Virus record (IMG/VR): IMGVR_UViG_3300025810_000095
Coordinates: 1-22,070 of that record
Reading direction: 5' to 3' (one strand)
Origin: a virus
DNA: 22,070 nucleotides
Notes under the pieces: generated by a model
What the model saw: the letters and a program-made list of their open reading frames with translations, nothing else
The model's database searches: none
What the model was told of the DNA's origin: nothing
Program-made: the position numbers and the translations under genes
Shown: positions 13,271-22,070 of the stretch, piece after piece
Layout: the number at the start of each line of letters is the position of its first letter
Position numbering within the stretch: the first letter of the stretch is position 1

Positions 13271-13292
13271 TACTAACCCTATAGATATGAGT

Positions 13293-13353
13293 ATATAGTT
13301 CTATATTAAGATATGTTTTTGATACACCCAAATGAAGTTTTTGATACACCCAA
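13293..13353 (-). promoter_or_regulatory. Two 17-bp direct repeats plus palindrome, candidate operator or iteron pair
   Basis: GTTTTTGATACACCCAA occurs exactly at 13315-13331 and again at 13337-13353, a period of 22 bp (about two helical turns), so both copies present the same DNA face. The second copy abuts the stop codon of the HTH gene at 13354. Just beyond is ATATAG-TT-CTATAT (13293-13306), a perfect inverted repeat. The block lies between the HTH gene and the 67-aa gene. A dimeric regulator or replication initiator could bind here; the adjacent HTH protein is the obvious candidate. Confidence 0.6.
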
Positions 13354-13743
13354 CTATTTCCTGTTATTAACTATGTGAATAACTTTTGGATTATTCATGG
13401 CATAGTTCTTTTGTTGTTTATTCTTAGCTAAAGTAATTTTTCTTCGCTTATTTAGATTGTGTTGTATATAATCTTGCATTAATTTTTTCTCAAAAACATA
13501 ATGGTTTGTGCCATTGTTAATTTGTTTTCTAGCAAGCATCCCAAACAACTGTAGTCGGTCAAGGCACTTAGTAAGTGTTCTCCTGGTTTTAATACCAGTT
13601 CTTAACATCAGGTATTTGTGCGATATTCGGCAACCATTGGGTGCAAACTCAAAGGATTTGCAAATGACATAGATTAGCTTTTCATGGCTATTTAAGTTTC
13701 TGTTGTTAATTAAATCTTTGTCAAATTTTTCAAAATATTTCAT
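13354..13743 (-). CDS. Winged-helix (HTH_36-like) DNA-binding protein, 129 aa
   Basis: Residues about 15-75 (LNSHEKLIYVICKSFEFAPNGCRISHKYLMLRTGIKTRRTLTKCLDRLQLFGMLAR) show the helix-turn-helix and wing of HTH_36-type domains, which occur in phage replication initiators and regulators. The remaining 50 residues are basic and probably disordered (NLNKRRKITLAKNKQQKNY). The ATG overlaps the stop of the MT-A70 gene (ATGA at 13740-13743). Without an additional replication domain it is more likely a regulator, or the DNA-binding part of an initiator. The 17-bp direct repeats directly after its stop are a likely target. Confidence 0.65.
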   Translation of the reverse strand: MKYFEKFDKDLINNRNLNSHEKLIYVICKSFEFAPNGCRISHKYLMLRTGIKTRRTLTKCLDRLQLFGMLARKQINNGTNHYVFEKKLMQDYIQHNLNKRRKITLAKNKQQKNYAMNNPKVIHIVNNRK

Positions 13744-14276
13744 ACTTCGTTACCCCAACAATCCCATCCATCAACTTTCTGTCTGGCAAAGAGTTCAATT
13801 CTAGGTAAATCACCACAAAGCTGTACGATTCTATCCCTTACACAATCAGGCTTTCTGCTGTGTTCTCTAATTTTATCAAGCACTACCTGGTGGACAGATG
13901 ATGATATTCTTTTTGGCTTACCTTTTGTGGCCAGCAAACAAATCTCATTATTGGATCTTGTATAATAACCCATTCCCCAAAATAAACTGTCAGCTTTTTT
14001 ATTTTTTTTTATCCAACTAAAACCACAAGTTTTATATGTAAATCCCCATCGTTTTATGGTTTCTAAACCCTCTAATAAATTTGGATATGTTACCCAAATA
14101 AATAAAATACAATTATCGTCTGCAATTTCATTTACAGGCATTTTATAAATATCCTCAGCTGACATGAGATCATAATGATCTGAAACTTTTCTTTGTGCTT
14201 TGTTGCTCCAAAAAGTAAAAGTCCAAGCTGGATCTGCATAAATAATATTGTATTTTTTGTTTGGCAGCTTAATCAT
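13740..14276 (-). CDS. MT-A70 family adenine DNA methyltransferase
   Basis: The catalytic motif DPAW lies at residues 15-18 (YNIIYADPAWTF), a variant of the DPPW motif of MT-A70 enzymes that methylate adenine N6. Further family elements are LFIWVTYPNLLEGLETIKRWGFTYKTCGFSWIKKNK and the SAM-side motif HSRKPDCVRDRIVQLCGDLPRIELFARQ near the C-terminus. I choose the ATG at 14276 (178 aa), preceded by AAAGGTGG, over the GTG at 14285. The gene overlaps the zinc-finger ORF upstream by 8 bases. In phages such solitary enzymes usually protect the genome against host restriction or alter promoter activity; which applies here is not visible. Confidence 0.85.
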   Translation of the reverse strand: MIKLPNKKYNIIYADPAWTFTFWSNKAQRKVSDHYDLMSAEDIYKMPVNEIADDNCILFIWVTYPNLLEGLETIKRWGFTYKTCGFSWIKKNKKADSLFWGMGYYTRSNNEICLLATKGKPKRISSSVHQVVLDKIREHSRKPDCVRDRIVQLCGDLPRIELFARQKVDGWDCWGNEV

Positions 14277-14436
14277 CCTCACCACCTTTACCTATTTCCT
14301 CTAATGGTATTTGTAATATTTCAGATGAATAATGATCTGGGCAATAATGCTTATTGTTTTCTGTTAGCATAGCTGGTGTATCACAATCTTTCATGCAACA
14401 CTTCTTTGCCGGATCACCATACATATCTAGTTCCAT
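14269..14436 (-). CDS. Small zinc-finger protein, 55 aa
   Basis: The ORF bridges the two methyltransferase genes, overlapping the cytosine enzyme by 10 bases and the adenine enzyme by 8. The peptide (MELDMYGDPAKKCCMKDCDT..., then KHYCPDHYSSE) has the pattern C-x3-C (C14, C18), a PA pair, and C32-x2-H35, a layout seen in small phage zinc-binding proteins. A second in-frame ATG at 14424 gives 51 aa. The acidic tail ends EEIGKGGEDD. It may be a DNA- or protein-binding partner of the enzymes on either side, since all three are translated in close coupling. Confidence 0.65.
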   Translation of the reverse strand: MELDMYGDPAKKCCMKDCDTPAMLTENNKHYCPDHYSSEILQIPLEEIGKGGEDD

Positions 14437-15329
14437 TCATTTATTTCTTCTTCTGCTTTAATAATGGCTTTGCCAATTTCTGTGATGATGGGAGGTACGA
14501 TTGAATTTCCAAGTGCTTTAATTCTGTTGGCTCTATCTGTGTCCAATTCTGTTGAAATCCCATGAGGAATTCCAAAAAGTTCGGATTCAGTTTCCCACCA
14601 GGTTTGTTGTTTTTTAATATCTGTCTGGCACAACTGTTTTGTGAGTTCTTGCCCATTTTCCAAGTTGTGTTGTAGCTCATATCCTTGTGATCTGATGCTC
14701 TGGGTGTTGGATAATTCCATTTGATTACTGGTTGTTCTGAGTTGTAATCTTTGATTGCTGTTAAAATATTTATTTGATGTTTCTTCTCCCTTAAATTTTT
14801 CTGACTTCTTGCACCCCTTGCTGAATCCCAAGCATTTGGTGTTGGCAGCAACGATCCAGATTCTACTTCTTTTGTGCCATGCTCCTTGCGAACTAGCTGA
14901 AATATTAAAAGTTTGGACTTCGAAACCTTGAGATTCCAAATCATTGTAAATTCCTTGCAAGATTTCTCCATTTGAGATGTTAGTAAGGTTTTGGACATTT
15001 TCGCCAATAATCCATCTGGGTTTAACCTCTTTAATGACTCTAAACATTTCATCCCAGAGGTATCGTTCATCATCTTTTCCTTTTTGCTTACCGGCAATAC
15101 TGAAACTTTGACAGGGAAAACCTCCGACCAACACATCTGCTTTAATTTTTCTGGCATCTAATTTTTTAATATCCTCATGTATTGGTATGTTTGGCCAATG
15201 CTTATGCAAAACCTTTTGGCAAAACTTGTCTTGCTCACAAAAGGCAACTGTTTTGAATTTATTAGTTGACTCAAGACCAATACTAAAACCACCAATACCG
15301 CTGAATAAATCAAGTACACTTAATTCCAT
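14427..15329 (-). CDS. C5-cytosine DNA methyltransferase
   Basis: A 300-aa enzyme with the ordered C5-methyltransferase motifs: motif I LDLFSGIGGFS (residues 6-16), motif IV GGFPCQSFS with catalytic C73, motif VI GENV (109-112), motif VIII WHKRSRIWIVA (about 151-161), and C-terminal motifs IX-X WWETESELFGIPHGI and RIKALGNSIVPPI. The target-recognition part (about 165-240) is short. It transfers a methyl group from SAM to cytosine C5 at a site not predictable here. The ATG at 15329 overlaps the nuclease-like gene by 10 bases. A 238-codon ORF lies in the +1 frame at 14441-15157. Confidence 0.92.
   Translation of the reverse strand: MELSVLDLFSGIGGFSIGLESTNKFKTVAFCEQDKFCQKVLHKHWPNIPIHEDIKKLDARKIKADVLVGGFPCQSFSIAGKQKGKDDERYLWDEMFRVIKEVKPRWIIGENVQNLTNISNGEILQGIYNDLESQGFEVQTFNISASSQGAWHKRSRIWIVAANTKCLGFSKGCKKSEKFKGEETSNKYFNSNQRLQLRTTSNQMELSNTQSIRSQGYELQHNLENGQELTKQLCQTDIKKQQTWWETESELFGIPHGISTELDTDRANRIKALGNSIVPPIITEIGKAIIKAEEEINEWN
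14441..15157 (-). CDS. Overprinted ORF inside the cytosine methyltransferase gene, 238 aa
   Basis: This ORF is open for 238 codons in the +1 frame of the cytosine methyltransferase gene, in DNA where stops are frequent. Its product is not random: it contains SGSLLPTPNAWDSARG, YPTPRASDHKD and GGKLNPNFLEFLMGFQQNWT, then a basic SSQK tail. These are signature motifs of a phage protein family I know as standalone or C-terminal proteins (W/LPTPTASD and LNPxWVEWLMGFPxGWT). They lie exactly over methyltransferase motifs VIII to X, read one base later. The ATG at 15157 is only one possible start, and no clear ribosome site was confirmed. Translation is not proven; see the finding. Confidence 0.5.
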   Translation of the reverse strand: MPEKLKQMCWSEVFPVKVSVLPVSKKEKMMNDTSGMKCLESLKRLNPDGLLAKMSKTLLTSQMEKSCKEFTMIWNLKVSKSKLLIFQLVRKEHGTKEVESGSLLPTPNAWDSARGARSQKNLREKKHQINILTAIKDYNSEQPVIKWNYPTPRASDHKDMSYNTTWKMGKNSQNSCARQILKNNKPGGKLNPNFLEFLMGFQQNWTQIEPTELKHLEIQSYLPSSQKLAKPLLKQKKK

Positions 15330-15829
15330 GCTCCATCTTTCAAAAATTTAATTGGTGTTAATTTTTCTAATCCTAATGAGTGAACTTTTGGTCGGTCAGT
15401 AATACCAAAGTCAGTTAAAAATCTGTCAGTACCTAAAACATGGGTACTATTAACAAAGCCATGAATTTCAAAAATAGGTGCTTTATCAATAACTAAAATG
15501 TAAATTTCGTTTGGCTTACTACCTTTGGGTCTAATAATTAAACTATTATGTTTTTTAGGTAACTGCGATCTAACTTGTAAATGTATGTCATGAAATATTA
15601 TGTCAGGGTTAGAGCCATGATTTACATGAAAATTAAATTGTGTATCTAAATATCTGCAAACTGCAAGCTCTGCACAAGCACCACTAATTGATTTTGCTAT
15701 CTGGTCATTAACTGTGCCTTTATAGTTATGACCCCAATCTTGTTTTAGTCTTAATGACTCAAATACTCTTAGCAACCCAGTTTGTGAAGCTGCCATAATA
15801 TCGTATAAATCTAATTTAACTTCTATCAT
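15320..15829 (-). CDS. Restriction-endonuclease-fold-like protein, 169 aa
   Basis: The sequence follows the order of PD-(D/E)XK-like small phage proteins: a helix with glutamate (SISGACAELAVCRYLD, E54), PDIIFHDIHLQVRS with D76 and Q85-x-R87 in the place of the usual E-x-K pair, then strands SLIIRPKGSKPNEIYILVIDKAPIFEIHGFVNS. I recall such proteins in phages as hypothetical nuclease-like genes. The missing acidic residue at 85 and the arginine instead of lysine suggest altered or lost catalysis. It precedes the cytosine methyltransferase with a 10-base overlap, reminiscent of a restriction-modification pair. The fold call is by eye. Confidence 0.5.
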   Translation of the reverse strand: MIEVKLDLYDIMAASQTGLLRVFESLRLKQDWGHNYKGTVNDQIAKSISGACAELAVCRYLDTQFNFHVNHGSNPDIIFHDIHLQVRSQLPKKHNSLIIRPKGSKPNEIYILVIDKAPIFEIHGFVNSTHVLGTDRFLTDFGITDRPKVHSLGLEKLTPIKFLKDGAWN

Positions 15830-15831
15830 AA

Positions 15832-16098
15832 TTAATTTGGTATTTTTTCTAAATGTAAATGATGTGATTTAATTTTATCCAATTCTCTATCTGACAGTTC
15901 TGGATTTAATTTTTCACAAAATGCTAAGATTAAACTTCTCATTTCAGAGTTGCTTAACAAATCAAATCCTGCCATTTCAAAAATTTGGTTGTATTCTTTA
16001 GGGGTAAAATTAATTTCTTCTAAATCTTTTATTTTTTCTTTTATTTCTTTGTATTTTTTTAAATTAATATCAAATTCCACAATAACCCTCACACTCAT
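15832..16098 (-). CDS. Hypothetical 88-aa protein
   Basis: A helical protein (MSVRVIVEFDINLKKYKEIK...) starting with one strand followed by charged helices (DLEEINFTPKEYNQIFEMAG and MRSLILAFCEKLNPELSDREL). It overlaps the end of the PP-loop gene by 29 bases in another frame. A GTG at codon 7, preceded by GAGGG, is an alternative start that would shorten the overlap. No family recognised. The single cysteine and two adjacent histidines (KSHHLHLEK) do not make a clear metal site. It sits between two DNA-modification-type genes. Confidence 0.5.
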   Translation of the reverse strand: MSVRVIVEFDINLKKYKEIKEKIKDLEEINFTPKEYNQIFEMAGFDLLSNSEMRSLILAFCEKLNPELSDRELDKIKSHHLHLEKIPN

Positions 16099-16900
16099 TA
16101 TTAAATAAATCTAGTTGATCAGTTTTTGGATCAAAATCTATTTCATCAATTGGTTTGCAACTGTTGTGTAAATACAGCTCATCTTTTAAAGTTGCCGAAC
16201 CTTTATTTTTTTCCTTAAATCTTTCTTGTGTTCTTATTGCTTTATCCAATGCAACAACTTCATCCCACTCTCTACTATTATTTTTTATTTCAAGCCATTC
16301 TTTTGCAGAATGAAATGGGCAAAAAGTACAAGCTGATCTTGGTGGTTTAGGATAATTATTTTTTTCCATCCATGTTAAACAATGTGCTCTCCTAAAATCT
16401 TTATCTATTAATGGGTAAATATTTTTAATATATTTAATTGGGTTGATTTTCATTCTTTGAACTTCATCTTTAGATATGCCCATTAACAGTTCAACTTGAG
16501 TACCCTCTTTTCTTCTTTCACCTTTTTTTAAACCAAGTAATTCTCTTATTTTTTGTAATACAGGTTTTATCTTGTAATCTGCTGTGCATTGTCTGCGAAG
16601 CATACCTTTTTTTCCTGTTTCTAAATTTTTGGTGTAAAATGGTGCTGTAAAAGCTTTAAATTCACCTTTAGAAGCATCTAATATATCTTGTTTTAAATCT
16701 CTGTAGCTAACAATATAAATTGGAAATTTAGTAATTTGTTTTTTTAAATAATTTAGCCAATCATAAACCGCTTTTGGCTCACCTTTTACATCTGCAAAAA
16801 TAGCTGCACTGACGTTCTCAATTTCACCCTTTTGAATCATAAGTGCTAAAGTAGAACTTTGAACACCAGCACCTAAACTTAATATTCTTAATTTTTTCAT
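16070..16900 (-). CDS. PP-loop ATPase, PAPS-reductase-like
   Basis: A 276-aa protein with an N-terminal PP-loop of the form SLGAGVQSSTLAL (residues 8-20), which binds ATP and adenylates a substrate in this family. Cysteines C105 (LRRQCTADYKIKP), C174 and the pair C191/C194 (SACTFCPFHS) are spaced as in phage PAPS-reductase-like proteins, and the last residues CEGYCGI are a known C-terminal signature of that group. Such phage proteins are usually annotated as phosphoadenosine phosphosulfate reductase; true sulfate reduction is unlikely. Relatives act in tRNA thiolation and DNA phosphorothioation (DndC). Its position beside two DNA methyltransferases suggests a nucleic-acid substrate, but this is inference. 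Confidence 0.78.
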   Translation of the reverse strand: MKKLRILSLGAGVQSSTLALMIQKGEIENVSAAIFADVKGEPKAVYDWLNYLKKQITKFPIYIVSYRDLKQDILDASKGEFKAFTAPFYTKNLETGKKGMLRRQCTADYKIKPVLQKIRELLGLKKGERRKEGTQVELLMGISKDEVQRMKINPIKYIKNIYPLIDKDFRRAHCLTWMEKNNYPKPPRSACTFCPFHSAKEWLEIKNNSREWDEVVALDKAIRTQERFKEKNKGSATLKDELYLHNSCKPIDEIDFDPKTDQLDLFNNECEGYCGI

Positions 16901-17127: not shown

Positions 17128-17444
17128 TTGGCAGCACAACTTTTTATAAAAGTTATTAATTTAGGATTTTGTAAAAAAATTTTAGAAAACTCTGAGCCTA
17201 TAAAACTTGCTACACCCTCCTCACCAAGATTTTTTAAACGAATCTCTGACTTGTGAGCTATCATGTGTGCAATTTCATGCAGTAAGGTGTCTAGCAAGGT
17301 GATATTTTTAATATCTTCTTGGATAGCTATGATTGATTTGTCTGTATCGTAGTAACCCCAGATATTGTCTTTTTTAGCGTCTTTCCTAGCTAATTTAACT
17401 ATTTTTACCTTAAAATTACGATATTTAATCTCTTTCAGAATCAT
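17124..17444 (-). CDS. HExxH zinc metallopeptidase-like protein, 106 aa
   Basis: LLHEIAHMIAH (residues 54-64) has the zinc-binding HExxH motif (H56, E57, H60), and GEEGVASF downstream offers the third ligand (E75 or E76). The beta-strand start (YRNFKVKIVKL) and the strand IIAIQEDI before the motif match small phage metallopeptidases of the ImmA/IrrE or SprT-like kind, as far as I can judge by eye. It is the first gene of the leftward accessory operon, directly opposite the repressor, and its promoter leaves only about 5-6 bases of leader. A role in cleaving a regulator is possible by analogy with ImmA, but no partner is shown. Confidence 0.7.
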   Translation of the reverse strand: MILKEIKYRNFKVKIVKLARKDAKKDNIWGYYDTDKSIIAIQEDIKNITLLDTLLHEIAHMIAHKSEIRLKNLGEEGVASFIGSEFSKIFLQNPKLITFIKSCAAK

Positions 17445-17455
17445 AACTAAGCTTT

Positions 17456-17484
17456 GTTATAAATAAAATTATATTATGTTGCAA
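17456..17484 (-). promoter_or_regulatory. Leftward promoter of the accessory operon
   Basis: On the minus strand TTGCAA (17484-17479), 17 bases, then TATAAC (17461-17456). The expected start is near 17449, only about 5 bases before the ATG at 17444, with no ribosome site, so the mRNA would be nearly leaderless. The -10 box lies within the motif TTTGTTATAA (17453-17462), which recurs in the repressor operator. Confidence 0.6.
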
Positions 17485-17491
17485 TTATTAT

Positions 17492-17514
17492 TTGTTATAA
17501 TATATCTATAACAA
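17492..17514 (+). promoter_or_regulatory. Repressor promoter (extended -10) with overlapping palindromic operator
   Basis: TGTTATAAT at 17493-17501 is an extended -10 (TGn before TATAAT). A perfect inverted repeat, TTGTTATA (17492-17499) and TATAACAA (17507-17514) around 7 bases, covers the -10 and the expected start near 17508. The start codon at 17547 has a strong AGGAGGTG at 17537-17544. This layout predicts autoregulation of the 229-aa gene. The same TTTGTTATAA half-site is at 17453-17462 in the leftward promoter. Confidence 0.6.
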
Positions 17515-17546
17515 CATGATAATAGACAATAATAATAGGAGGTGTT

Positions 17547-18236
17547 ATGGTTATAGATATAATTAAGACTACATTAGACATGTTTCAAAAAGAAAAATTG
17601 GAAGAATTGTTAAAAATTCACAACGTATCAAGAGATCAAGTTTTAAGAGATACACTTGGTAAGAATGTTAGAGAGTTTAACAATTGGAAAGTTAAATGGT
17701 CTAGGCTTGTAAATAAAAAAGATAAAGACCCTAGTAATTTTGGTTTGTTAGAATTTTCAACACTTTTATCTAAATATTTTAACGCTAGAGGTAAAATTGA
17801 TGAACCAATTATATCTAATACTTATTTTATAACTCCAGATTGTACTATTAATGGTGTTGGTGAATTACAAATAAATGGTCAAGTAAGAGTATGGTCTAAA
17901 AAAGAACAAAAAAAATTAAAAGTTATAGAAAAATGGAAAGGCTATAATTTTATAGTGTTAAGATTAGGCTCAACCAGAGGATCAGTTCGTTTTTTTAAAC
18001 CATTAAAAATTATTGAAACTGAATCTTTATATTCCATGTCAATTATAAGAGAAAAGAAAACTAAAAAATTATTTGCTGGATTTTTAATACCTTTAAATAA
18101 TGGTAATTATGATGTGGTTGATAAATCTACAATTACTGACCAAACTATATCTGTTATGGCTCAAAATATTCAAATTGATGCAGCTTCAAAGTTTATGGCA
18201 GCAAACTTCCCTAACAACAATCAATGGGTGTTATAG
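17547..18236 (+). CDS. Probable phage repressor / master regulator, 229 aa
   Basis: I do not recognise a named family. Residues about 10-80 are helical (KEKLEELLKIHNVSRDQVLRDTL, then NFGLLEFSTLLSKYFNAR) and could contain a degenerate helix-turn-helix. Residues about 90-190 are beta-rich (VGELQINGQVRVW, WKGYNFIVLRLGS, KLFAGFLIPLNNGNYDVVD), resembling in outline the C-terminal dimerisation part of CI/LexA-like repressors, but I see no clear Ser-Lys peptidase pair. The case for a regulator is context: it is alone between two early operons, has its own promoter with an overlapping palindrome, and is flanked by two copies of TGTTGCAATTAT. It may be a new repressor type. Confidence 0.55.
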   Translation: MVIDIIKTTLDMFQKEKLEELLKIHNVSRDQVLRDTLGKNVREFNNWKVKWSRLVNKKDKDPSNFGLLEFSTLLSKYFNARGKIDEPIISNTYFITPDCTINGVGELQINGQVRVWSKKEQKKLKVIEKWKGYNFIVLRLGSTRGSVRFFKPLKIIETESLYSMSIIREKKTKKLFAGFLIPLNNGNYDVVDKSTITDQTISVMAQNIQIDAASKFMAANFPNNNQWVL

Positions 18237-18252
18237 ATAATTTATAATACTG

Positions 18253-18281
18253 TTGCAATTATCATATAATAACATTATAAG
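18253..18281 (+). promoter_or_regulatory. Rightward early promoter, leaderless transcript predicted
   Basis: TTGCAA (18253-18258), 17 bases, TATAAG (18276-18281). The expected start is around 18288-18290, and the first gene begins ATG at 18290. There is no Shine-Dalgarno sequence, and an in-frame TAA at 18278-18280 excludes a longer protein. TGTTGCAATTAT (18251-18262) is identical to 17477-17488 in the divergent region, so one regulator probably controls both. Confidence 0.62.
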
Positions 18282-18289
18282 TTATTTAT

Positions 18290-19162
18290 ATGACGAATCA
18301 CCCAAAAATATTAGGCGATTGTTACAAAAAATTTAACTTGGCACATACTAGTAAAAGCCAAAACACAATTCCTGACGATATAAGATTCAGAAATTACATT
18401 GTACTTACCCCAAAAGAAAAAGCTAACTTACCAAGTAATTGTTCTTTTACTGGCGGTACGATTGCACATGAAATAATTCAAAGAATTTTATGTAAAAATT
18501 TATCTTACCAACAAGCACTAGAGTCTGTGCAAGATAGAATAACTAATTACAAAAGTATTGATGAAAAAGATGATTTAAAATTTGGTCACATCATAGATAA
18601 CATGGAAGATTTAGTTAATAACCATTTAGCTAACATTGATGAAGTAGGCAAACAAACCTGGCAAGATGAATTAGAATATACACATTGGGCAGATGGCATT
18701 AATACTTATTTTTTAATGTATGTAGATTTGGTTGGCCAAACAGAATTTTTTGATATTAAAAATGTATTCGGCACACTAACTAAAACTAAAAAAGGTTTTA
18801 GTTATTCCAAAAAAAAATGCCCTAAAGTTCCATACCATTCAGATTGTATGCAGCTTGCCTTGTACAGTAAGGAACTACCAAAACTTAAACCTTGCCTGAC
18901 TTATGCAAGTGATAGCGATAGAGTTGTTTTTACACCTAGCAACTGTGTAGAACTTAGACCTGATAGCTTACAATATTATTATGAAGAATTAGTTCTTTAC
19001 CAAAAGTGTTGGGAAACAAAATTAGAATTAGCTAATGGCGACCCTAAAGTTCTAGCAAAACTTTGCAAACCTGACTTATCAGAAATTAGAAAAGATGGCT
19101 TCTGGTGGAAAGGTTTAGATCCAGAAATTATTAAAAGATTTAGAGGTTATTATGAACTTTAA
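18290..19162 (+). CDS. RecB / lambda-exonuclease-like PD-(D/E)XK nuclease, 290 aa
   Basis: Residues show the RecB-family nuclease order: H60 in GGTIAHEIIQ, an E/Y helix near 128-133, D146 (YVDLVGQTEFF), D155-I-K157 as the D-x-K catalytic pair, and Q188-x3-Y192 (CMQLALYSK), the QxxxY motif. This is the PD-(D/E)XK fold also found in Cas4 and AddB, and in viral exonucleases acting with annealing proteins. It probably resects phage DNA ends for recombination. It is the first gene of the rightward early operon, with a predicted leaderless start. The last part (GFWWKGLDPEIIKRFRGYY) has no known motif. Confidence 0.72.
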   Translation: MTNHPKILGDCYKKFNLAHTSKSQNTIPDDIRFRNYIVLTPKEKANLPSNCSFTGGTIAHEIIQRILCKNLSYQQALESVQDRITNYKSIDEKDDLKFGHIIDNMEDLVNNHLANIDEVGKQTWQDELEYTHWADGINTYFLMYVDLVGQTEFFDIKNVFGTLTKTKKGFSYSKKKCPKVPYHSDCMQLALYSKELPKLKPCLTYASDSDRVVFTPSNCVELRPDSLQYYYEELVLYQKCWETKLELANGDPKVLAKLCKPDLSEIRKDGFWWKGLDPEIIKRFRGYYEL

Positions 19163-20226: not shown

Positions 20227-20520
20227 ATGGAAAGTAAAAACCCTCCTCACTATCAAAAAGGAATACAAACTTGCGATGCCATTATGAGTCAAATGACTCC
20301 AGAAGAAAACATCGGCTTTTTGAGAGGATCAGCAATGAAATACTTATCTAGGTTTGGTGCTAAAGGAGGGCAAACACTAGAAAAGGCAATTATGGATTTA
20401 GAAAAATCTAATTGGTTTAACCAAAAGTTAATTAACTATTTAAAAAGTCTAGCAAGCGATGGCAATGATTTACGAACTACTAAAACCAACGTAACAAATT
20501 TATTTGAGGAAATTAAATGA
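20227..20520 (+). CDS. DUF3310 (SaV-like) protein, 97 aa
   Basis: The sequence shows the DUF3310 pattern: NPPHYQKGIQTCDAIM at residues 5-20, then FLRGSAMKYLSRFGAKGG (about 31-48) and a helix with W63 (KSNWFNQKLINYL). This family is common in phage early regions; the function is undetermined, and nucleotide metabolism or replication control has been proposed. The ATG is one base after the upstream stop. The last 20 or so residues (TTKTNVTNLFEEIK) extend beyond the usual core. The stop overlaps the next start (ATGA). Confidence 0.8.
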   Translation: MESKNPPHYQKGIQTCDAIMSQMTPEENIGFLRGSAMKYLSRFGAKGGQTLEKAIMDLEKSNWFNQKLINYLKSLASDGNDLRTTKTNVTNLFEEIK

Positions 20521-20828
20521 TACTTAAAAATGGAAATGGCAATGGCAATGGTCATATTTACCTAAGCCAAATAAAAAAAGATGTTCTTGATTTTATAAAG
20601 CACTTCATTGAAACTTATGACTATGCTCCAACCTACAAAGAGATAAGTGAAAAATTTCATTTTACTAGAGCAAGAGCTGGTGCTTTAATTGCAGAGTTTC
20701 GTAAATTAAATCTAATTAGTAAAAGCAACCAGGCTCATAGAAATATTGCCTTATCTAAAAAACAATTAAAATTAATACCCACACTTAAAGTTAATAAAAG
20801 TTATTCAACAATGGAGTTCAGAAAATGA
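20517..20828 (+). CDS. LexA-type winged-helix protein without peptidase domain, 103 aa
   Basis: Residues about 15-80 match the LexA N-terminal DNA-binding domain: LSQIKKDVLDFIKHFIETYDYAPTYKEISEKFHFTRARAGALIAEFRKLNLI, followed by the wing ..RNIALSKK. The self-cleaving S24 domain is absent, so it cannot respond to DNA damage by cleavage. A repeated NGNG stretch at residues 5-12 is encoded by a 6-base tandem repeat. The gene is coupled to the DUF3310 gene (ATGA) and to the next gene. It is probably an early-gene regulator. Confidence 0.72.
   Translation: MILKNGNGNGNGHIYLSQIKKDVLDFIKHFIETYDYAPTYKEISEKFHFTRARAGALIAEFRKLNLISKSNQAHRNIALSKKQLKLIPTLKVNKSYSTMEFRK
20529..20552 (+). repeat. Hexanucleotide tandem repeat at the start of the LexA-like gene
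   Basis: Four copies of AATGG[A/C/T] run from 20529 to 20552 and encode the NGNGNGNG stretch. Copy changes would add or remove two residues and not shift the frame. It sits just after the start codon and might influence early elongation or the N-terminal tail length. Confidence 0.7.
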
Positions 20829-21273: not shown

Positions 21274-21678
21274 ATGGCATTGAGTAAATCCAAAACAGAT
21301 TTTGAAGTAACGATTGCAAAAGCTGTTGGTAAGAAAATAAAATATTGTAGAGAAAATTATTATAGATCGGTTAAAGAAATAGTAGATGGTGAGTTTAAAG
21401 GTACTTATAAACCAGTTAAAATGCTTGTTACTCAATCAAGGTTAGCAAAGTTTTGCGGTGTAACATTTCAACAGATTCAAAAATATGAGAAAGGTGGCAA
21501 TAGTTGTAGCCTACCAAAGCTGCTAATGATTGCAGCATTTTTTCAAAAACCAATAACTTATTTTTTAGAAGATATAAATTTAGAAGAATTATTAGGGCAA
21601 GACACTTCTCCAAATAATAACCCAATAGCTCCCTCTTTAAAAGAGTATGGGATAACAGAAAAAAGTAAGTGTCATTAA
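21274..21678 (+). CDS. Cro/CI-type (XRE) helix-turn-helix regulator, 134 aa
   Basis: Residues about 50-100 hold the XRE helix-turn-helix: LVTQSRLAKFCGVTFQQIQKYEKGGNSCSLPKLLMIAAFFQKPITYFLED. The N-terminal 48 residues are a basic helical extension, including an insertion (EIVDGEFKGTYKPVK) between the first helix (KKIKYCRENYYRS) and the rest of the domain, and the last 30 are probably disordered. AAGGAGAG lies at good spacing before the ATG. It ends the rightward block just before the terminator, where a Cro-like or late regulator could sit. It is the most recognisable repressor-type protein here, so it may share control with the 229-aa protein. Confidence 0.75.
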   Translation: MALSKSKTDFEVTIAKAVGKKIKYCRENYYRSVKEIVDGEFKGTYKPVKMLVTQSRLAKFCGVTFQQIQKYEKGGNSCSLPKLLMIAAFFQKPITYFLEDINLEELLGQDTSPNNNPIAPSLKEYGITEKSKCH

Positions 21679-21938: not shown

Positions 21939-22070
21939 TTAACCCCAATTGTAGTGTTTGTTTTGATAATCAATGTTCTGCACTTCATCACCATTGCTTT
22001 GATATGGTTTGATGTAAGTGTCCTGGACAAAGTTAATATCCTTATCCCCTAGTGCTTTTGCCAAATCTAT
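21939..22070 (-). CDS. int: Tyrosine recombinase (integrase), C-terminal 43 residues (runs off right edge)
   Basis: The minus-strand frame is open from base 22070 to a TAA at 21941-21939. The peptide IDLAKALGDKDINFVQDTYIKP looks like the last part of a tyrosine integrase, in which LGDKDI aligns with the common LGHxxI segment and the Y of DTY is the expected nucleophile tyrosine. The following 25 residues are a polar tail. It converges on the 56-aa ORF with no gap. Only the end is visible, so the identification is by pattern and by position next to a phage control region. Confidence 0.6.
   Translation of the reverse strand: MDLAKALGDKDINFVQDTYIKPYQSNGDEVQNIDYQNKHYNWG

Follow-up and report, generated by a model that had tools for sequence, protein, structure and literature searches.

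A putative immunity region with a predicted CI-like repressor and probable leaderless early starts in a phage related to Pelagibacter phage HTVC106P

We describe a putative immunity region in a 22,070-nucleotide stretch of viral DNA (IMG/VR record IMGVR_UViG_3300025810_000095, positions 1 to 22,070; hereafter the window). The explanation that we consider likely as a whole is that the region belongs to a temperate relative of Pelagibacter phage HTVC106P. Its new-looking, predicted CI-like repressor of 229 amino acids would act on the palindrome GTTATA-N7-TATAAC (type A), the message from the rightward early promoter (P_R) would be leaderless, and the TTGCAA hexamers of P_R and of the leftward early promoter (P_L) would serve as -35 boxes (Table 1).

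The window is contained near letter for letter in a 38,710-bp record, G001 (21,919 of 22,070 positions, ungapped). Its first 4 kb are 75% identical to HTVC106P, and it is from this relation that we infer the host, the ocean bacterium SAR11. Relatives of the repressor are encoded in 34 IMG/VR loci. Comparisons of both early promoters used 29 near-type loci, namely the window together with 28 relatives in which both flanks are present (the left-cut L011 and L022 and the distant loci were excluded). The P_R start was compared in 54 loci, comprising 36 from the repressor search and 18 on contigs newly found with the 290-amino-acid protein of the first right early gene as query; the latter search returned 34 loci, of which 13 were contigs already in the set and three were without the gene start. 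Ten loci are repressor-minus (L056, L058, L059, L060, L063, L064, L065, L067, L068 and L077): a profile search of their records, which are fragments of 4.7-23 kb, found no repressor, and that of L067 begins just 166 bp ahead of the gene. Consistent with a temperate phage, the integrase gene shares genomes with the repressor gene; it also occurs in five of the ten repressor-minus records. In G001 the integrase is a tyrosine recombinase with PF00589 and PF14659, and its promoter (P_int), which carries type A and type B sites (see below), lies outside the window. A suspected break in the G012 integrase proved to be a run of N, and a search for attachment sites by way of transfer RNA genes gave none in 12 sources.

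The type A palindrome is the probable operator of the repressor. Across 392,960 bp of 35 related, non-independent records it occurs exactly 33 times at a spacer of 7, against once at all other spacers from 0 to 15, and G001 has two copies where 0.01 would be expected. Judged by sequence position, operator palindromes lie at both early promoters and at the repressor's own promoter (P_M), as in CI-like systems. The copy called O_M overlaps the extended -10 of P_M and lies 34 bp upstream of the repressor ATG in all but one of 28 loci (37 bp in that one), while the copy called O_R has no or one mismatch in 19 of the 29 near loci and a gap of 4 bp to the P_R -35 in every one of them. An exact type A site is also found at the promoter of the integrase operon in G001, L022, L038, L040, G005 and G007, with its right half forming the -10; the full arrangement is TTGCAA-N4-GTTATA-N7-TATAAC in the first four, with TTGTAA instead in G005 and G007. 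The left half at P_int reads GTTAGC, GTTAGT or ATTAGT in L005, L026, L030, G010 and G012 and is further off in L010, L012 and L036; L039 is cut there. In the distant loci L042 and L043, GTTAA-N8-TTAAC takes the place of type A at the left promoter.

A second palindrome, TATAAY-N3-RTTATA (type B), occurs 40 times at a spacer of 3 against 14 times at all other spacers from 0 to 20 combined, always on the -10 of P_R or P_int, barring one place in G005. There, overlapping type A and B sites (L031, 12135 and 12148) precede a leftward operon near the small terminase gene, the first gene of which encodes a 189-amino-acid protein; by its sites this operon would be a further member of the regulon. It is quite possible, if somewhat short of an even chance, that the two palindromes are read by different proteins, with the 229-amino-acid repressor on type A and a second, Cro-like regulator such as the 134-amino-acid XRE protein of the right operon on type B, an arrangement compatible with the explanation given above. 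Type A is absent from the fetched loci of all seven mapped repressor-minus phages (0/7), while type B persists in repressor-minus L063, L064, L065, L067 and L068. Type B is likewise present at P_R in L044, where type A is absent; that locus encodes a 35% identical repressor (20-1116), followed by an extra short gene and then the same P_R. Against two readers, the palindromes share the GTTATA half and type B is absent from repressor-minus L056, L058, L059 and L060; the case for the XRE protein is its presence in the operon.

The right early start is very likely leaderless, to judge from the layout of its promoter. A TTG lies 34-37 bp before the ATG of the first right gene in all 54 loci, which represent 32 distinct sequences, compared with 10% of 498 ATGs in G001, and no Shine-Dalgarno energy in these loci reaches -4 (none is below -3.8). 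In the 36 loci of the repressor search, exactly 8 bp separate a -10-like hexamer from the ATG; by eye, this gap is about 6 bp for the best box of L074-L076 and L078-L080 and about 5 bp for that of L077. The second base of the P_R -10 falls 13 bp before the ATG, and in an excerpt of PMC3160421 leaderless bacterial genes are marked by a signal resembling a -10 near 12 bp upstream of the start. An upstream TATAAT (18265-18270) was rejected as the main P_R -10, as distant relatives keep TTGACA or TTGACT, N17 and a box near the ATG, and do not keep the TATAAT. The left early start appears nearly leaderless and less constrained, the P_L -10 lying 11 bp from the ATG in 18 loci and 13 bp from it in 11. 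In the window, duplex energies at the left and right starts are +1.1 and +0.8 kcal/mol (no match), against -10.8 for the AGGAGG of the repressor gene. A Shine-Dalgarno match is also absent from 11 other genes of the 36 in the window, so its lack alone is not special.

These results uphold most of an earlier note on this DNA, made from the letters alone, which had described start codons 8-12 bases from their -10 boxes without a ribosome site and a repressor gene between them with an extended -10, a palindromic operator and a strong ribosome site. All of these elements are present, the gaps in the window being 11 bp at P_L and 8 bp at P_R. Its proposal that the early genes are translated leaderless and the repressor conventionally is also supported, for the left gene in the form of a nearly leaderless start; the ribosome site of the repressor gene lies between the operator and the ATG. 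A short open reading frame upstream of the repressor at 17516 (ATGATAATAGAC) was discarded, its ATG being lost in L012 and L021.

An alternative that we hold to be unlikely is that the early starts are not leaderless, and that transcription begins upstream, for example at P_M with passage through the repressor gene, translation then beginning at an AUG that lacks a ribosome site, as it does in many AT-rich messages. The 11 other genes without a Shine-Dalgarno match would fit such a view, as would the lack of any terminator found between repressor and P_R in the window and the -10 boxes without a final T. It leaves unexplained the fixed distance of 34-37 bp between -35 and ATG in all 54 loci, and likewise the persistence of this distance without a repressor gene: all seven mapped repressor-minus loci keep the P_R spacing.

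The 229-amino-acid protein is predicted to be CI-like on the basis of its modelled fold. A first model from 16 sequences (predicted local distance difference test score, pLDDT, of 60) was uninformative and was superseded by an AlphaFold model from 25 sequences, with a pLDDT of 86.7 and a predicted template modelling score of 0.71. A structure search with this model returned a lambda-186 hybrid repressor (E 2.7e-4), 186 CI (E 1.5e-3) and a lambda CI fragment (E 2.1e-3). The predicted C-terminal fold aligns with the LexA C-terminal domain at Z 9.2 over 110 residues and 3.1 A, and with that of 186 CI at Z 8.2; best Z values of 7 to 8 are common without kinship with this aligner, and the weight rests on the top rows being all LexA or CI proteins. 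The N-terminal part, of four helices, reaches Z 5.2 over 64-65 residues to 28tn, which is lambda-repressor-like, and to 9iaq, with enzymes of similar subfold at Z 4.1-4.7. Conservation, as mean majority fraction, is higher in the N-terminal helices (0.88 for residues 44-71) than in the C-terminal domain (0.60 for residues 84-229). No serine is common to all 25 sequences within residues 84-193; S194 is invariant, but the 229-residue chain has no lysine 30-50 residues beyond it. Without a conserved Ser-Lys dyad, self-cleavage of the repressor seems unlikely. Scanned singly, 25 family members gave scattered weak matches only, and tblastn at E 0.01 found no relative in the phage collection. A distant homologue with one internal TAA occurs in G019 (13280-13936). 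In the BFVD database the model matches gp03 of HTVC011P (L047, 1805-2584; identified by its name and its length of 259) at E 2.3e-6, while a comparison of sequence profiles (hhalign) gave no match between the two. This unannotated protein belongs to a temperate T7-like pelagiphage, and it may be the repressor of that phage.

Taken together, the positions of the sites suggest the following mechanism. The repressor would bind type A, probably as a dimer, and would restrain both early operons, its own gene and the integrase promoter. On O_M, just upstream of P_L, it would cover its own -10; on O_R it would sit just upstream of P_R; and on the integrase promoter it would fill the spacer and the -10. 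Site position speaks for a direct block at P_M and P_int. O_M would be the strongest site, and it may cooperate with O_R over a distance of 736 bp. Transcription from P_R would start about 2 nt before the AUG, so that the first right-operon gene would be translated leaderless, while P_L would give a leader of 4-7 nt and the repressor mRNA would carry a normal leader with a ribosome site.

That the protein instead activates the early promoters, and represses only itself and the integrase, is in our judgement rather improbable. O_M and O_R do adjoin the -35 boxes of P_L and P_R on the upstream side, which is where activators bind, with the O_R centre near -49 and the O_M centre near -54 relative to the presumed starts, and the core boxes of both promoters are weak. 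Classic activator positions are -41.5 or -61.5, and both centres differ from these. Obligate activation is further made unlikely by the repressor-minus loci, because P_R persists there with no stronger core (TTGTAT, TTGTAA, TTGATT or TTGCAT, with a -10 of TATAAG, TATAAA or TATAGA).

The earlier note had further regarded TTGCAA as an element shared by two operons under one regulator. It had placed a 12-mer, TGTTGCAATTAT, at 17477-17488 and 18251-18262, each copy giving TTGCAA-N17-TATAA(C/G), one leftward and one rightward; these coordinates are correct, and no other exact copy occurs in the window. With up to two mismatches there are nine copies against a shuffle mean of 7.3, which is no enrichment. 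The exact 12-mer is found among the 29 near loci on the left in 11, on the right in five and at both places in three, and the hexamer TTGCAA on the left in 29 and on the right in 12. Judged by the refuting condition that the note itself had set, a lack of conservation among relatives, the 12-mer does not hold up. Across the 54 P_R loci the hexamer is TTGCAA, TTGCAT, TTGATA, TTGATT, TTGCTT, TTGTAT, TTGTAA, TTGACT or TTGACA, always with TTG first. This drift around a fixed TTG causes TTGCAA to be read as a -35 box: the two copies of the 12-mer supply P_L and P_R with their -35 regions and are not the target of a regulator. On the left, TTGCAA-N16/17-TATAAC is present in 29 of 32 loci tested, the distant L041-L043 being without the motif. 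That a single regulator binds TTGCAA at both operons is therefore a very improbable reading, for all that the hexamer is invariant at P_L in 29 of 29 near loci while the consensus -35 is TTGACA, since it stands at P_R in only 12 of 29 and distant relatives have TTGACA or TTGACT there, as a -35 would. A single regulator for both early operons is not supported as acting through TTGCAA; it stays plausible through type A, with O_M by P_L and O_R by P_R.

TTGCAA can be read in both directions because it is its own reverse complement, and from the P_R -35 a promoter-like TTGCAA-N17-TATAAC also points leftward (18230-18258, minus strand), antisense to the repressor gene, whose end it enters. As a promoter it was rejected for want of conservation, its -35 becoming AATCAA or TATCAA where P_R has TTGATT or TTGATA. 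In the whole of G001, TTGCAA-N16..18-TATAA occurs four times, more than chance would give (Markov mean 0.61; the maximum of 100 simulations was also four): at the promoters P_L, P_R and P_int and at one antisense site.

Several observations weigh against the repressor model set out above. Every -10 box of P_L, P_R and P_int is without the final T of the sigma-70 consensus. A sigma-70 scan of the window passed over P_L and P_R for this reason, and its 13 sites against 12.4 expected are nothing above chance; the TATAAC form resembles the housekeeping consensus of Caulobacter. A G-rich, Shine-Dalgarno-like run precedes the left-gene ATG in seven of the 29 near loci (-5.8 to -7.1), and the left half of O_R is degenerate in ten (ATTAGC-N7-TATAAT). 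O_R lies upstream of the -35, an unusual place for simple repression; with the sites of P_R and P_L both so placed, repression there would require that RNA polymerase be kept from its upstream contacts or that O_M and O_R cooperate. The repressor sequence has nothing significant in Pfam, PHROGs or PDB and no match to a known repressor, and a pattern-limited search with the repressor and integrase profiles gave no confirmed match in bacterial genome contigs. Finally, the 6.7-kb record G007 has no repressor and nevertheless an exact type A site at P_int, which counts against a strict coupling of site and repressor unless the repressor is encoded elsewhere.

The leaderless starts might also serve as a translational gate in the lysis-lysogeny switch, a speculative role to which we give little credence. 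The repressor gene and the right early operon stand in tandem, 53-65 bp apart in 14 loci measured, and with this order and no terminator found, transcription of the repressor gene in a lysogen would continue into the early operon. If the first right-operon AUG worked only at the 5' end of an mRNA, such read-through RNA would be untranslated and exposed to Rho, transcripts from P_R would be translated, and the ribosome state of a slow-growing host could bias the decision. The repressor-minus loci tell against the gate: they keep the same P_R spacing, so insulation cannot be the only reason for a leaderless start.

Like 186 CI and lambda CI, the repressor would combine a possible helix-turn-helix with a predicted LexA-like C-terminal domain, its gene lies between the early operons, and probable inverted-repeat operators lie on its own and the early promoters. 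It differs from them in having no sequence match and no conserved Ser-Lys dyad, and its gene is in tandem with the right early operon rather than divergent from it. The repressor mRNA has a leader, whereas lambda cI is leaderless in the excerpted text of PMC4488713. The same excerpt describes leaderless cI and cro in phage PY54, so leaderless early phage genes are already known; its immB region is alike in having beside a CI repressor a first early gene on a leaderless mRNA, as predicted here, and unlike in that the PY54 cI is also leaderless, where the repressor here is led by a Shine-Dalgarno site, and in gene order. An excerpt from the authors of the AR9 study calls phage transcripts 'often leaderless' (PMC5312081). 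The predicted P_R start shares with leaderless bacterial genes the lack of a Shine-Dalgarno site and a signal resembling a -10, some 12 bp upstream of the start codon (PMC3160421, in excerpt); here it is a phage, and the -10 boxes have no final T. With HTVC106P the window shares structural genes, about 75% identical over part of its length, and related XRE and nuclease genes; the HTVC106P genome has no match to the repressor or integrase, and neither palindrome (type A or B) nor a TTGCAA-core site was found in it.

Table 1. Features of the putative immunity region and neighbouring genes (window coordinates)
Feature	Position	Strand	Remarks
Left early operon, first gene, metalloprotease-like with HEIAH, 106 aa	17124..17444	-	
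P_L -10, TATAAC	17456..17461	-	N17 from -35; 11 bp to ATG at 17444
P_L -35, TTGCAA, inside left 12-mer copy	17479..17484	-	TTGCAA in 29/29 near loci
O_M, type A, probable operator	17494..17512	.	exact in 27/28, one mismatch in 1
P_M extended -10 of repressor gene, TGTTATAAT, inside O_M	17496..17501	+	
Shine-Dalgarno AGGAGG of repressor gene	17537..17542	+	
Predicted CI-like repressor, 229 aa	17547..18236	+	34 related loci; predicted fold
O_R, type A, probable operator, GTTATAGATAATTTATAAT, overlaps repressor gene end	18230..18248	.	4 bp upstream of P_R -35
P_R -35, TTGCAA, inside right 12-mer copy	18253..18258	+	TTG kept in 54/54 loci
Type B, TATAAT-N3-ATTATA, overlaps P_R -10	18265..18279	.	
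P_R -10, TATAAG	18276..18281	+	N17 from -35; 8 bp to ATG at 18290
Right early operon, first gene, predicted leaderless, weakly Dna2/nuclease-like, 290 aa	18290..19162	+	
103-aa protein with LexA DNA-binding domain, right operon	20517..20828	+	PF01726, E 6e-8
134-aa XRE-type regulator, right operon	21274..21678	+	PF01381, E 7e-8
Tyrosine integrase, C-terminal end, cut by window end	21939..22070	-	final residues at 21939-22064

In ImmR/ImmA modules the repressor gene adjoins a gene for an HExxH metalloprotease, and a similar neighbour is found here, although the two genes are divergent and the protease gene also occurs in phages without the repressor. HExxH is conserved in the metalloprotease in 18 of 19 loci read, the L017 frame having been missed by the script, and the match to the M78 family (PF06114, E 0.0027) is below the curated cut-off. 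In six of the seven mapped repressor-minus loci the gene lies directly beside the nuclease gene, 77-175 bp apart; it is unlisted in L077. The protease is one candidate for an inducer of the repressor. An ImmA-like role was kept as a lead only, given its persistence without the repressor and a relative in HTVC112P, where the gene lies inside a rightward operon.

SAR11 phages are among the most abundant marine viruses. A literature search, made mostly without subscription papers, found no paper on the lysis-lysogeny repressor and operators of such phages, and the excerpts of PMC12753301 and PMC10504331 describe no lysogeny repressor. The region offers a testable switch, with defined sites and natural repressor-minus relatives, and its conserved, predicted leaderless early translation together with a leadered repressor would reverse the lambda arrangement for the repressor.

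Farther along, the left operon (13740-16900, minus strand) encodes an MT-A70 methylase, a C5-cytosine methylase and a phosphoadenosine phosphosulfate (PAPS)-reductase-like protein. At the position of the last of these, L056 has an unrelated gene of 226 amino acids (1196-1876) and its close relative L059 a reductase-like gene (1076-1876), a difference which suggests a hot spot of exchange.

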